Part shown: positions 45,577 to 50,859 of the stretch, in pieces
How the letters are laid out: each line of letters starts with the position of its first letter
How positions within the stretch are numbered: position 1 is the stretch's first letter
NCBI RefSeq assembly: GCF_943737015.1
Contig: NZ_CALSFP010000001.1
Location: 1,550,001 to 1,614,000, forward strand
Reading direction: 5' to 3'
Length of the DNA: 64,000 bases
Source of the DNA: Staphylococcus sp. Marseille-Q5304
GTDB lineage: Bacteria > Bacillota > Bacilli > Staphylococcales > Staphylococcaceae
Notes under the pieces: generated by a model
What the model saw: the letters and a program-made list of their open reading frames with translations, nothing else
What the model was told of the DNA's origin: nothing
Database searches by the model: none
Translations under genes and position numbers: made by a program

Positions 45577-45810
45577 ATGACTAAAAAAGATGAACCTACT
45601 GTAATAGATCCTAATGATCCATCTTATAAAGGATCAGATCACTTTGAAGATGAGAGACATACGTCAGAGCAATTTAGCGAAATGAATGGCACTGGTTTTA
45701 GAATAATGGGTTGCGGTCCATTTGGATGTTTTGGCGGTTGTTTAACTAGTATTATACTTTCAATATTACTCACTATTTTATTAAACTTTTTATTCAATCT
45801 CCCATTTTAA
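45577..45810 (+). CDS. Small C-terminally hydrophobic protein (77 aa)
   Basis: Not recognised. ATG 45577 behind AGAAGGAGG. The first half is acidic and polar (KKDEPTVIDPNDPSYKGSDH), then a Gly/Cys-rich patch with three cysteines (GCGPFGCFGGC), then one hydrophobic helix (about 58-75). Looks like a tail-anchored membrane protein. The 45202-45576 gap otherwise holds the cggR promoter and AT-rich sequence. Confidence 0.65.
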   Translation: MTKKDEPTVIDPNDPSYKGSDHFEDERHTSEQFSEMNGTGFRIMGCGPFGCFGGCLTSIILSILLTILLNFLFNLPF

Positions 45811-45820
45811 CGTATTAAAA

Positions 45821-45860
45821 AACTGGCACGTCAGGATGATTTACATTCTGACTGCCAGTT
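45821..45860. terminator. Bidirectional terminator
   Basis: AACTGGC and GTCAG pair with CTGAC and GCCAGTT (two internal mismatches), followed by ATTTTTTAG; between the convergent 45577 gene and the repetitive protein gene. Confidence 0.8.
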
Positions 45861-45865
45861 ATTTT

Positions 45866-46708
45866 TTAGTCCTCGTCACTTTGTTCAGAGGATTGTGAAC
45901 TACTATTTGAGCTAGAATCACTACTTGATGATGGCTCATCACTATTTTGTGATGAGCTTTGGCCACTATTTTGGTTAGATTGTTGTTTGCTTGATTGTTG
46001 TTTACTTGATGACTGTTCAGATGATCTTGGTTGTTGCGAAGAAGACTGACTAGTTGATTGTTTAGTTTTTTTTTCCTCTGTCGAAGCTTGTTGTTTCGCA
46101 CTATTGCCTTCTTGGGATGATTGTTGTTTTGAGTCATCTTCAGCTGTTTTTTCTTTTGTTGAAGGTTCCTGCGTTGAGCGCTCTGTTGTAGAACGTTGCT
46201 CTGTTGATTTTTGTTGTGTAGATGGTTTTTCTGAAGTGCGTTTTTCTTGTGTTTTTTCTTCAGTGGATTTTTCTTGTGTACGCTCTTGTGTTGATTTTTC
46301 TTGTGTTGATTTTTCTTCTGTCGTACGTTTTTCACGTGTTGATGGCTCTTGAGTACTACGTTTTTCAGAAGTTTGTTCTTTTGTTGGTTTCTGCTCTGTT
46401 GATTTTTCTACTGTTTTACTTGGTTGTTGTTTCTGTTGTGTTTGTTGTGTTTGTTTAGATGAGTCATTATCTTTTTTGTCTTTATCTTTGTCTTTATCTT
46501 TGTCTTTATCCTCATCCTTTTTATCGTCTTTTTTCTTATCTTTATCTTTGTTCTCTTCTTGCTTTTGTTCGTTTAAGCGTTCTTTAGCCTTATTAGAATG
46601 ATCAACGAATGCAAATACTGCAAACACTAAACCACTGATCAATAATAAAACGATAACGCCACTAACAATTTTAGCAAAAGAACTCATTCCACCATTTCGG
46701 TTCGACAT
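45866..46708 (-). CDS. Membrane-anchored, low-complexity Ser/Gln/Lys/Glu protein (280 aa)
   Basis: Not recognised as a family. One N-terminal hydrophobic helix (about residues 10-32, SGVIVLLLISGLVFAVFAF) serves as a type II signal anchor; the remaining ~245 residues are fully disordered. Segments are a KD-repeat (about 47-80), Q-rich (about 85-95), STQE/STEE/KRT repeats (about 98-190) and S/Q-rich then S/D (about 190-280). No LPXTG motif, lipobox or wall-binding domain was found. GGGGAGC before ATG 46708. A wall-spanning or cell-separation role is possible but unproven. Confidence 0.75.
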   Translation of the reverse strand: MSNRNGGMSSFAKIVSGVIVLLLISGLVFAVFAFVDHSNKAKERLNEQKQEENKDKDKKKDDKKDEDKDKDKDKDKDKKDNDSSKQTQQTQQKQQPSKTVEKSTEQKPTKEQTSEKRSTQEPSTREKRTTEEKSTQEKSTQERTQEKSTEEKTQEKRTSEKPSTQQKSTEQRSTTERSTQEPSTKEKTAEDDSKQQSSQEGNSAKQQASTEEKKTKQSTSQSSSQQPRSSEQSSSKQQSSKQQSNQNSGQSSSQNSDEPSSSSDSSSNSSSQSSEQSDED

Positions 46709-46977
46709 ATGCTCCCCTCACTTCATTTCAATAAATTTATTTCTCAAGTGACATTGTTTCAAAATAACAAAAATATATTCTACACGAATTTTTTTAAACT
46801 GCAACAACTTTTAATCTATTATTTTTTAGCCATTAACATGTTACCATGAGTATGTCGCTAATAAAATAGCTACTTCCCTTTTAACTGTTTCAGAAGTACT
46901 CAAACCCTGAACAGTATTATTTCTTAAAATAAACACATTTTACACTTTATTAACTATTACAGGAAGTGACCCTTTTA

Positions 46978-47178
46978 ATGACTAATAATAACTACAATCC
47001 GCATGATATCTTCAATGAAACAGATAATCACAAGCAAAAAGGATTACGACGTATGATGTCGGAAAACGATGATTATGAATCTCAACCAAAATCGAAGAAA
47101 CAAATAGTTATTTTATTATTAATAATAGTTACACTTATAATTACTGCTTTAGTTATATCTCAGATCTTTATTCACTAA
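46978..47178 (+). CDS. Small tail-anchored protein (66 aa)
   Basis: Not recognised. ATG 46978 (MTNNNYNPHDIFNETDN) behind AGGAAGTGA; the GTG at 46966 lies inside that site. Hydrophilic, Asn/Lys-rich N-terminal half and one strong hydrophobic helix (about 44-64, IVILLLIIVTLIITALVISQIFI). Divergent from the repetitive protein, which has the opposite topology. Confidence 0.6.
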   Translation: MTNNNYNPHDIFNETDNHKQKGLRRMMSENDDYESQPKSKKQIVILLLIIVTLIITALVISQIFIH

Positions 47179-47598
47179 TCTATAACTAACGTTAGTATAA
47201 AGAGAAATGGACGACTATGCAAAAAATACACTATTTTTTGAAGTAACATCTAACTCTTCGTAACCACCTTCAGCAATACCCCTTACTTACTCAACTTTCA
47301 TTTGTAACTTACAAAAGCCTGAAACGTTGTAACGTCTCAGGCTCATTACTAAAGGGAGTTAGATATTTACCTTCGTAAGTATATTATGGGTATACTGAAA
47401 TAATTAAGAGATGATTAATTTCTATCGAAGGTACTTTAATTATAAATCTATATAACCTCAAATAAAATAGATTTCAACGCAACTTAATGACATATTGATG
47501 ACTAATTTTTGAACACTATATGTCATTTGCGTATTAAATAAATTGTAGCTACTCACTAACATTCGTATAATAGAATACATAGCGAAGAGGTGATCTAT
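47179..47598. other. Gap before TIGR01777 gene
   Basis: Contains a perfect 12-bp palindrome ACTAACGTTAGT (47185-47196) right after the previous stop and a hairpin at 47316-47343 that lacks a T run. The rest is AT-rich. No supported ORF. Confidence 0.5.
47316..47343. terminator. Hairpin in 47.2 kb gap
   Basis: AGCCTGAAACGTT pairs with AACGTCTCAGGCT (one mismatch), short loop. The CTGA/TCAG core resembles the terminator stem of the dispersed repeat but no other part of it is present. Probably the end of the transcript from 46978. Confidence 0.6.
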
Positions 47599-48498
47599 TT
47601 GAAAAATTATTTAATTACAGGCGGCACTGGTATGATCGGTTCAGAGTTAATCAATGCCATTGTCCATAGTGAAGCCCATATCACTGTATTAACGAGACAG
47701 AATATTCAAACGTCACAATCACAAATAACATATATCAATTGGTCACAGCCAAATTGGGAATCACAAGTTCCAAGTGACATCGACTTTGTAATCAATCTCG
47801 CAGGTGCTAGTTTAAATCAACGATGGACACAATCGTATAAACAAGAAATTATGTTAAGTCGACTGAAAGCTACACAAGCTTTATACGACTTATTTAAAGA
47901 CCGCACACATAAGCCGTCAGTGTTCTTTAATGCGAGTGCTGTCGGGTATTACCCGCCTGATTTATATCGTACCTATACTGAACTAGATCAAACGTTACCT
48001 TTTGATTTCTTATCTGAAGTGGTCTATCAATGGGAACGTAAAGCTCGACAGTTTGAGACTTTAGGTACACGCGTCATCATTGGACGATTTGGTATGGTAC
48101 TCTCAAATCAAGACGGTGCATTACCATTAATGAAACTACCTTATGAATTAAATGTCGGTGGTAAGGTTGGTTCAGGTAGGCAATGGTACTCATGGATTCA
48201 CATTGATGATGTAGTTCGAGCTATTCTTTTCACAATTAATTCCGATAAAGCTCAGGGTGTATTTAATTTCACAGCGCCTATCATCGAACGTCAAAATATG
48301 TTCGGCTATACGATTGCACGTGTGACAGAGCGTCCACATTATACTTGGGTGCCCGCACCATTTCTTAGATTACTACTCGGTGAAATGTCGACAGTCGTAT
48401 TAGATACTCAAAAAGTAATCCCTAACAAACTTCAAGCGATCAATTTCGAATTTAAATATTCAAACTTAAAATCAGCGTTAGAATCAATATTAAAATAA
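47599..48498 (+). CDS. TIGR01777-family NAD-dependent epimerase-like protein
   Basis: SDR-type protein of about 299 residues. TTG 47599 ([14 protein letters not shown]) is preferred, 6-9 nt after AAGAGGTG; the GTG at 47590 overlaps that site. The nucleotide-binding loop is [13 protein letters not shown], with [13 protein letters not shown] and [11 protein letters not shown] (catalytic-type Y region); a C-terminal DUF1731-like tail ([21 protein letters not shown]) is present. Function unknown; some relatives affect cell division or oxidoreduction. Probably with the small gene downstream. Confidence 0.85.
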
Positions 48499-48518: not shown

Positions 48519-48719
48519 ATGATGAAATATGATGCACTCACGCACATATTATTATTAATTGTAGGCTTGTTACTACTTGCAAATGGTATATTGTCTTTTG
48601 ATAAAACGATTGCGATGAGCATTGTTTCTATAATCTTCATTATAGTTGGATTAATCATCGTAGCCTTTGGAGGAAAGTTAATTTACGATAATAAATTTTC
48701 CAATAGTAAAAGTAAATAA
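48519..48719 (+). CDS. Small two-pass membrane protein (66 aa)
   Basis: Not recognised. Start ATG 48519 or the adjacent ATG 48522 after AAGAGGTG. Hydrophobic segments at about 8-22 and 32-54 and a polar, charged tail (YDNKFSNSKSK). It lies 20 nt after the TIGR01777 gene, so likely cotranscribed. A terminator follows. Confidence 0.65.
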   Translation: MMKYDALTHILLLIVGLLLLANGILSFDKTIAMSIVSIIFIIVGLIIVAFGGKLIYDNKFSNSKSK

Positions 48720-49808: not shown

Positions 49809-49847
49809 TCATCATGATCCTTTCATCTTGGGAATAAATATGTAAAA

Positions 49848-49882
49848 AAAGACGGTACGTTTTAACTCAACGTACCGTCTTT
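49848..49882. terminator. whiA terminator
   Basis: AAAGACGGTACGTT (49848-49861) pairs perfectly with AACGTACCGTCTTT (49869-49882), 7-nt loop; A-rich and T-rich flanks on both strands. Confidence 0.9.
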
Positions 49883-49914
49883 ACTCTTTCACAATTATTA
49901 CATTATTGTCAAAC

Positions 49915-50859
49915 TTATAATTCAATAGTTTCACCACTGCGGAGTTTATCTGCCATTTCGTTTAACTTTCTTAAACGATGGTTTACCCCAGATTTCGAAA
50001 TCTTTCCGGTAGACATCATTTCACCTAACTCTTTTAATGAAACGTCTTGATGTTCAACTCTTAACTTCGCAATTTCTCTCAATCTATCAGGTAAGTTATC
50101 TAAACCAATTTCTTGATCAATCAGTAAAATGCTTTCAACTTGTTTCATAGCAGCACTTACTGTTTTGTTTAAGTTTGCAGTTTCGCAATTAACTAAACGA
50201 TTAACTGAATTTCTCATATCACGAACAATACGCACGTCTTCAAATTTCAATAACGCTTGATAACCACCGATTAAACTTAAGAAATCAGAAATTTTTTCAG
50301 CTTCTTTTAAATAGGCAATACTGCCCTTCTTACGTTCTAAATGTTTAGCATTCAATCCATAACTATTCATCAATTGCGTTAAACCTTCTGAATGATCTTC
50401 ATATAATGAGAAAATCTCTAAATGATACGAAGATGTTTCAGGGTTGTTGACTGAACCACCTGCTAAAAAAGCACCTCGTAGATAACTTCGTCTCATTTCA
50501 TCATCTTGAATCATCGCTTCATCAATCTCATGCGTGAATATACCATTCTTTAAAATGCCTAAATCATTTAGTATTTCACGTGCGCGAGCTTTTATGCGAC
50601 AGATATAAATATTGTTCTTTTTTAATTTCATTTTCTTTCTTACAAGTAGTTCAACTTCAACTTTAAATACCTTTTTAATTAATGAATAAATTCTACGTGC
50701 TGTCGTGGCATTTTCAGTTTGAACATTAATGATAAATTGTTGGTTGGATAAACTGAGTGCACCATTCATTCGGATAAGTGCACTGAGCTCTGCTTTAGCA
50801 TTGATTTCATCTACTTCGATTCTCGTCAGCTCATTTTTCATATCAGACGCAAAGCTCAT
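49915..50859 (-). CDS. whiA: Sporulation/division regulator WhiA
   Basis: 314 residues. N-terminal degenerate LAGLIDADG-homing-endonuclease fold ([26 protein letters not shown], about 111-136) and C-terminal helix-turn-helix (about 220-305, [20 protein letters not shown]). In low-GC Gram-positives WhiA influences cell division and chromosome segregation. Start ATG at 50859 follows GAAGGGCC. Third gene of rapZ-glmR-whiA. Confidence 0.97.

Follow-up and report, generated by a model that had tools for sequence, protein, structure and literature searches.

RagB (YrrS) of Bacillus subtilis is described, in the available text of PMC12457691, as a single-helix protein with a short end in the cytoplasm, an extracellular intrinsically disordered region (IDR) rich in lysine, serine, and aspartate, and a C-terminal domain. 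According to the same source, its membrane region and IDR are both required for binding to RodA, and a version without the cytoplasmic end and the C-terminal domain can take the place of the full-length protein in supporting growth. The suggestion made there is that the IDR guides RodA to wall damage (PMC12457691). The IDR of B. subtilis PBP1, as reported in the accessible part of PMC13270295, senses wall pores, probably through entropic translocation.

In Staphylococcus aureus, the family DUF4887 has been assigned to SACOL0835, a protein of 209 amino acids, which the available text of the same study places among hypothetical proteins whose expression differed when a single MSSA strain was compared with a single MRSA strain (PMC5429968). 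The S. aureus DUF4887 protein has also been put forward in silico as a membrane antigen candidate, and the tail printed in the accessible part of that report matches by eye one of the orthologs collected here, L015 (PMC13260313). No tested function for a DUF4887 protein was found in the literature searched.

Herein, we analyze a DUF4887-family gene located at 45866..46708 on the minus strand of a 64,000-nucleotide stretch of DNA (the window) from Staphylococcus sp. Marseille-Q5304. Its product is predicted to be a bitopic membrane protein with a disordered tail. Like SACOL0835 (MDF3296909.1), the window protein matches DUF4887 above the cut-off, and the locus is kept in Staphylococcus schweitzeri, where the protein (L043) has 209 amino acids, the same length as SACOL0835. 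However, the window protein is longer (280 amino acids) and contains more STQE/STEE and KD sequence.

The resemblance to RagB lies in the short N-terminal end, the single predicted helix, and the predicted disordered hydrophilic tail, whose placement on the outer side is suggested by charge. In contrast to RagB, the window protein lacks a C-terminal folded domain. Pfam DUF1510 (PF07423), which we take to be the YrrS/RagB family (the RagB paper writes DUF1515), has no matches in the window genome and is not among the Pfam matches of the window protein, while a 14-genome control hits B. subtilis only. In addition, the motif pattern bound by GpsB, [ST]RxxR, is present at the rule-chosen N termini of 0 of 62 orthologs. 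Because both the DUF1510 match and the GpsB-like motif are missing, we reject membership in the RagB/YrrS family and propose only a shared working principle. With this restriction, the helix-plus-IDR part of RagB looks like the closest functional analogue found for the DUF4887 protein. The PBP1 IDR is likewise a disordered, charged tail outside the cytoplasm (a location we infer for the DUF4887 tail), but it is anionic and joined to a peptidoglycan synthase, whereas the window tail is near neutral and stands alone.

Two additional groups of proteins invite comparison. The elastin-binding protein EbpS is likewise a membrane protein of staphylococci and contains hydrophilic sequence of low complexity, but the window protein scores 31.3 bits against an NCBIfam equivalog cut-off of 300 and has no LysM domain among its Pfam matches, and this assignment was rejected. 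Sdr-type and other LPXTG surface proteins carry low-complexity repeats in variable number. However, these are anchored at the C terminus, whereas the DUF4887 protein is anchored at the N terminus. None of the 62 distinct orthologs contains the sorting-signal pattern [LNI]Px[TS][GNA] and no ligand-binding domain was found, and LPXTG membership was therefore also rejected. The remark in an earlier note on this DNA that the protein has no wall-anchor motif thus extends to the orthologs. The Pfam matches of the window protein also include no wall-binding domain.

The DUF4887 gene and the composition of its product

The gene begins with an ATG codon, ahead of which lies the Shine–Dalgarno-like sequence GTGAGGGGAG (46712..46721, minus strand). 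Among the orthologs, GTGAGG is located no more than 25 nucleotides from the rule-chosen start in 33 of 62. The whole window protein matches Pfam DUF4887 (PF16228) with 35.0 bits against a cut-off of 30.2. The window gene is the staphylococcal DUF4887 gene, and its family is already named and uncharacterized rather than new.

The protein can be divided into a series of blocks, all encoded on the minus strand. Residues 1–45 (46574..46708) form a conserved N-terminal module comprising a short start, a predicted membrane helix at residues 14–34, and the juxtamembrane sequence FVDHSNKAKERL. Residues 14–34 are the sole membrane-helix candidate in the protein (mean Kyte–Doolittle value 2.82). The tail begins with a KD/KE polyampholyte block (residues 46–82; 46463..46573), modeled mostly as a low-confidence helix that prolongs the membrane helix. 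This block is followed by QQT runs (residues 83–95), imperfect STQE/STEE/KSTEE repeats (residues 101–190; 46139..46408), a Ser/Gln-rich block (residues 191–255; 45944..46138), and an acidic, Ser-rich C terminus (residues 256–280; 45869..45943). At least two of the last eight residues are acidic in 35 of 62 orthologs.

Hydrophobic residues are nearly absent from the tail. Among the 235 residues from 46 to 280, V, I, L, M, F, W, Y, and C together account for one position, a V, while S, T, Q, and N make up a fraction of 0.53. The charged fraction is 0.41 and the net charge per residue is −0.01. Of the 54 non-overlapping open reading frames of at least 100 amino acids in the window, the DUF4887 gene is the only one whose product includes a hydrophobic-free stretch of 100 residues; the next lowest count per 100-residue stretch is 18 and the median is 31. 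The sequence is also repetitive beyond chance, with 44 repeated 5-mers, whereas 2000 composition shuffles average 2.8 and never exceed 14. Tandem Repeats Finder reports periods of 6, 12, 15, and 27 bp inside the gene. However, the repeats are imperfect, and the longest perfect tandem peptide array in the window protein, located in the KD block, is 12 residues. These data agree with the earlier note in the coordinates and strand of the gene, and in its account of one membrane helix followed by about 245 residues built from KD, STQE/STEE, and Ser/Gln blocks.

The same note had pointed out that another frame is open over part of the gene as a result of codon repetition. This frame is real (45859-46335, 158 amino acids) and can be attributed to composition, because 2000 of 2000 synonymous-codon shuffles keep it at least as open (mean of 219 codons compared to 180 observed). 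When codon order is shuffled, 6.1% of the shuffles reach the observed length. Across the 62 orthologs, the longest run in the second frame ranges from 49 to 238 codons. Given the shuffles and this variability, a separate gene in the second frame was rejected.

Distribution, constraint, and repeat variation

A profile of the N-terminal module (FVDHSxKxxERL) detects the protein in 84 of 84 listed Staphylococcus genomes, where the weakest best E-value is 2.0e-13. At the level of the bacterial family, 86 of 108 genomes match, including two weak matches outside the genus (2.6e-4 and 8.1e-4); two non-matching genomes are absent from the listing, and the genus tally places both outside Staphylococcus. 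Across the order, 90 of 157 genomes match, and the six outside the genus are all weak (best E-value 5.6e-6). Relatives in a separate named collection come from Staphylococcus in 23 of 23 cases. Outside Staphylococcus, nine genomes of the family were searched for the TIGR01777 gene that adjoins the DUF4887 gene in the window, and seven have it; at six such loci from sister genera (L102–L107) there is no DUF4887-protein match near it and other genes are present. Because the module occurs in all listed genomes of the genus, is matched weakly elsewhere, and is not seen beside the TIGR01777 gene at the six sister loci, the protein looks restricted to Staphylococcus.

The Pfam profile itself fits the family unevenly. 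In a six-frame search of 41 genomes of the genus, 28 matched DUF4887 at E ≤ 0.001, 23 were above the cut-off, and 13 gave no match; the window genome reached 26.5 bits, which is below the cut-off of 30.2. The 14 control genomes gave no matches. Ten of 11 orthologs match the profile at E ≤ 0.01, and the best fits are far higher in some species, with 166.6 bits for G018 (whose protein is that of S. schweitzeri) and 255.5 bits for G022. Searches for relatives of solved structure gave chance-level matches alone (E at least 0.4).

Orthologs were recovered from 98 of 100 loci, yielding 62 distinct sequences; L027 and L083, both from genome G014, were dropped, although the module was detected in that genome. 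Starts were picked by rule, such that some N termini are probably too short, and tails were cut by rule after the juxtamembrane motif. A single hydrophobic helix segment is present in all 62 sequences. L23, L27, F29, and D36 do not vary among the 62 sequences, and G26, A30, F32, F34, V35, S38, E43, R44, and L45 are identical in 56 to 60 (G26 in 56, A30 in 58, E43 in 58, and R44 in 59). The tails range from 147 to 260 residues with 0–6% hydrophobic residues and at most one Cys, and their sequences diverge strongly. Perfect tandem peptide arrays of up to 69 (L007), 66 (L011), and 63 (L120) residues occur, and eight of the 62 orthologs have none.

Tail dN is lower than dS in 34 of 34 close pairs (>80% DNA identity), which were drawn from the 62 orthologs and, because they share sequences, are not independent. 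Thirty-three of the 34 pairs show gap columns in the tail, and two show them in the N-terminal module. In the pair L010/L011, dN exceeds dS in the N-terminal module. On the evidence of these alignments, the tail is under selection for composition while its sequence and repeat number change.

Repeat turnover is also seen within the species. The genome G102 aligns with the window over 6516 columns with five mismatches and one gap. Two of the mismatches fall inside the DUF4887 gene, one synonymous and one changing R to K. The gap is an in-frame 15-bp deletion relative to the window that removes one STQEK unit (46303..46317, minus strand, with the exact placing ambiguous within the repeat). The prediction of the earlier note that the repeats vary between strains is therefore borne out by the only same-species pair available (two genomes).

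The high repetitiveness of the gene and its open second frame might suggest a non-functional or artefactual open reading frame that arose from codon repetition. This reading is largely contradicted by the presence of the gene in every listed genome of the genus, by its conserved locus, and by the dN and dS values of the close pairs. Furthermore, a DUF4887 gene of S. saccharolyticus is transcribed, and at 48 h its level in biofilm exceeds that in planktonic cells by 2.3 log2 units, according to the available text of PMC9742538. We consider the probability of an artefact to be negligible. A gene that is universal among the listed staphylococcal genomes and under selection, and for which the literature searched offers no tested function, marks a missing piece in the core biology of a genus that matters in medicine.

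Weaker matches of the module profile occur elsewhere in the genus (E from 4.8e-10 to 1e-3), and seven of these (L086–L092) were inspected by eye. L088 (512 amino acids), L091, L092, and probably L089 of the window genome (all three HtrA-like), and L090 (zinc-ribbon) have mainly a membrane helix in common with the DUF4887 protein and were not counted as family members. L086 and L087 carry a second staphylococcal protein with a helix and a disordered tail (666-1205 and 727-1233 of the respective loci, plus strand; 179 and 168 amino acids), convergent with a gene that is TetR-like by eye. It was not counted as DUF4887 either, and may be distantly akin to it. Hits with open frames of similar size are present in several genomes of the genus.

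Topology, export, and a possible role in the wall

An AlphaFold2 model based on 11 sequences has a mean pLDDT of 50.9 and includes one helix spanning residues 10–77. Averaged by block, pLDDT is 82 and 89 within residues 11–30 and 55–60 within residues 41–80, and from residue 85 on the model is coil with pLDDT mostly below 50, such that only the part near the membrane is modeled with confidence. Charge-hydropathy analysis likewise predicts disorder, with a mean H of 0.22 for the window tail against a boundary of 0.42. Some ortholog tails rich in Q, K, A, and E (L023, L026, and L029) may be helical in part.

In 46 of 62 orthologs, the residues ahead of the helix carry a higher charge than those behind it; 15 orthologs show no difference, and one shows the reverse. 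This modest bias favors, but not strongly, an N-in/C-out orientation. The bias is absent in 16 of 62 orthologs and the topology is a prediction, and a low-complexity tail of Ser, Gln, and Thr might instead lie inside the cell as a cytoplasmic scaffold or condensate former. However, the majority of orthologs show the N-in bias, and the window tail has no aromatic residues, eight Arg among 235 residues, and mixed charges that sum to nearly zero. The usual stickers of condensates are wanting in such a tail. Phase separation, which the earlier note had offered as one of three roles, is disfavored on this composition, and a tail inside the cytoplasm is in our judgment very unlikely.

Alternatively, the N-terminal segment could serve as a signal peptide whose removal, by a cut behind A30 or at a neighboring position, would leave a soluble polyampholyte that is secreted or trapped in the wall. 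By the general rule for signal peptidase sites, a cut could be accommodated by G26 (56 of 62), by the A, V, or I found at position 28 in most orthologs, and by A30 (58 of 62). The top PSI-BLAST match of SACOL0835 is also annotated as an “exported protein” in the available text of PMC5429968. However, the VFAFV sequence after A30 is still hydrophobic, and conservation continues through D36, E43, and R44, unlike what is expected of a mature N terminus. Moreover, the accessible portions of three reports point to a protein retained in the membrane: PSORTb assigns SACOL0835 to the cytoplasmic membrane with a score of 9.55 (PMC5429968), the S. aureus DUF4887 protein is predicted to reside in the cytoplasmic membrane with one helix and no signal peptide (PMC13260313), and a second paper on the same protein also predicts no signal peptide (PMC13311002). 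Cleavage is therefore rather unlikely.

The latter paper, which is concerned with the prediction of nucleomodulins, reports scores for a nuclear localization signal in the S. aureus DUF4887 protein in its available text (PMC13311002), and the protein might thus be directed at the host and reach its nucleus. This proposal consists of a prediction, and low-complexity sequence rich in K and R readily mimics such signals. In addition, the protein is predicted to be held in the membrane (PMC5429968, PMC13260313) and its K/D/E block differs between species. We find a nuclear destination scarcely plausible.

Considering general wall dimensions and a standard polymer formula, a 235-residue disordered tail would have a mean end-to-end distance of 14 nm and a contour length of 85 nm. 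By this estimate, the tail could cross the gap between membrane and wall and enter the wall. We tentatively prefer, with slightly less than even confidence, the view that the DUF4887 protein is a type II bitopic membrane protein whose tail resides in the wall and whose membrane module is docked on an envelope partner, with the tail serving as a spacer or gap sensor. Specifically, the short N terminus would remain in the cytoplasm and the conserved helix would pass through the membrane. The juxtamembrane FVDHSxKxxERL sequence and then the K/D/E-rich segment would exit on the wall side, and the disordered hydrophilic tail would reach across the gap into the peptidoglycan mesh. The tail would work through its length, charge, and absence of structure, which would explain sequence drift and repeat slippage in a tail whose composition is kept by selection. 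The membrane module would dock on a partner, most likely an envelope protein, for example a peptidoglycan synthase or a protein that regulates one, and the tail would serve this docked partner.

That the membrane and juxtamembrane residues are so strictly conserved speaks for such a docking partner. Against the preferred view stand the missing wall-binding domain and GpsB-like motif, the modest charge bias, and the lack of a peptidoglycan gene among the neighbors examined. Of the other roles proposed in the earlier note, a wall-spanning spacer fits the length, predicted topology, and composition of the tail, and a scaffold is possible because conservation of the module goes beyond what a simple anchor would call for. 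The same conservation bears on the idea of a passive hydrophilic brush or stress protectant, in which the tail would hydrate and screen the outer membrane face in salt or during drying without any partner. The extreme hydrophilicity of the tail, and the conservation of its composition rather than its sequence, are in keeping with a brush. However, a brush has no need of near-invariant membrane and juxtamembrane residues. Furthermore, hydrophilins are defined by more than 6% glycine, whereas glycine reaches at most 3.3% in the 62 tails and 0 of 62 exceed 6%. Membership among the hydrophilins was accordingly rejected, and a brush function seems unlikely.

A more specific version of the docking model is conceivable, though unlikely. 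The helix, through G26xxxA30 and a face formed by L23, L27, A30, and F34, would dock on a SEDS or PBP peptidoglycan synthase, and the tail would act as a stand-alone probe of wall gaps that entropically enters openings in the peptidoglycan and directs or boosts repair. If so, the protein would represent an independently evolved counterpart in a coccus of RagB and the PBP1 IDR, with its reach set by repeat slippage. More generally, if the tail does probe the wall, a mechanism described in Bacillus would be extended to cocci, and the DUF4887 protein would offer a simple system for examining how disorder, length, and charge gauge wall porosity.

Neighboring features of the locus

Upstream of the DUF4887 gene and on the same strand, the sRNA RsaH (RF01821; 47311..47434, minus strand; 81.3 bits against a cut-off of 50) lies between the DUF4887 and TIGR01777 genes. 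Scanning 14 of the 23 named loci revealed RsaH at 10, the exceptions being L035, L038, L050, and L052. It is thus a conserved neighbor, and the relation is positional. In S. aureus, the mapped position of RsaH falls between SA0724 and SA0725, and the sRNA is oriented like SA0725, as given in the available text of PMC3386247. Because of this position next to RsaH, SA0725 is presumably the S. aureus DUF4887 protein.

The divergent neighbor, encoding a TIGR01777-family SDR protein (47590..48498, plus strand), is retained at all 23 named loci, among them that of S. schweitzeri (L043). Both clpP and cggR are inside the flanks in 18 of 23. At L035, L036, L038, L039, and L050, the TIGR01777 and DUF4887 genes are together, with neither clpP nor cggR detected in the flanks; the L039 flank is truncated upstream. 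No peptidoglycan gene is present among the neighbors examined.

Three small open reading frames on the plus strand are also present. A convergent gene (45577-45810) encodes a 77-residue protein that ends in a hydrophobic helix and has no family match above the cut-off, and a similar sequence occurs at 15 of 23 named loci. Between the DUF4887 gene and RsaH lies a frame for a 70-residue single-helix protein (46966-47178; similar sequence in 11 of 23), and a 66-residue hydrophobic protein is encoded next to clpP (48519-48719; similar sequence in 13 of 23).

Between the convergent genes, an inverted repeat formed by AACTGGCA and TGCCAGTT (45821..45860) is followed by ATTTTTT on the plus strand and TTTTTT on the minus strand. 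Judged by eye, it is a probable shared terminator, and the consensus terminator scan has no entry for it. A sigma-A promoter candidate, TTGCAG-16-TAGAAT (46804-46777, minus strand), was rejected as weak and absent from the list of the consensus scan, which gave seven hits compared to 9.3 expected in shuffles and hence no excess. Finally, a long hairpin seen by eye at 49829-49904 (minus strand) has a sub-threshold miRNA match of 24.2 bits against a cut-off of 90. It is located just 3′ of an open reading frame at 49915-50859 on the same strand and is therefore probably a terminator.
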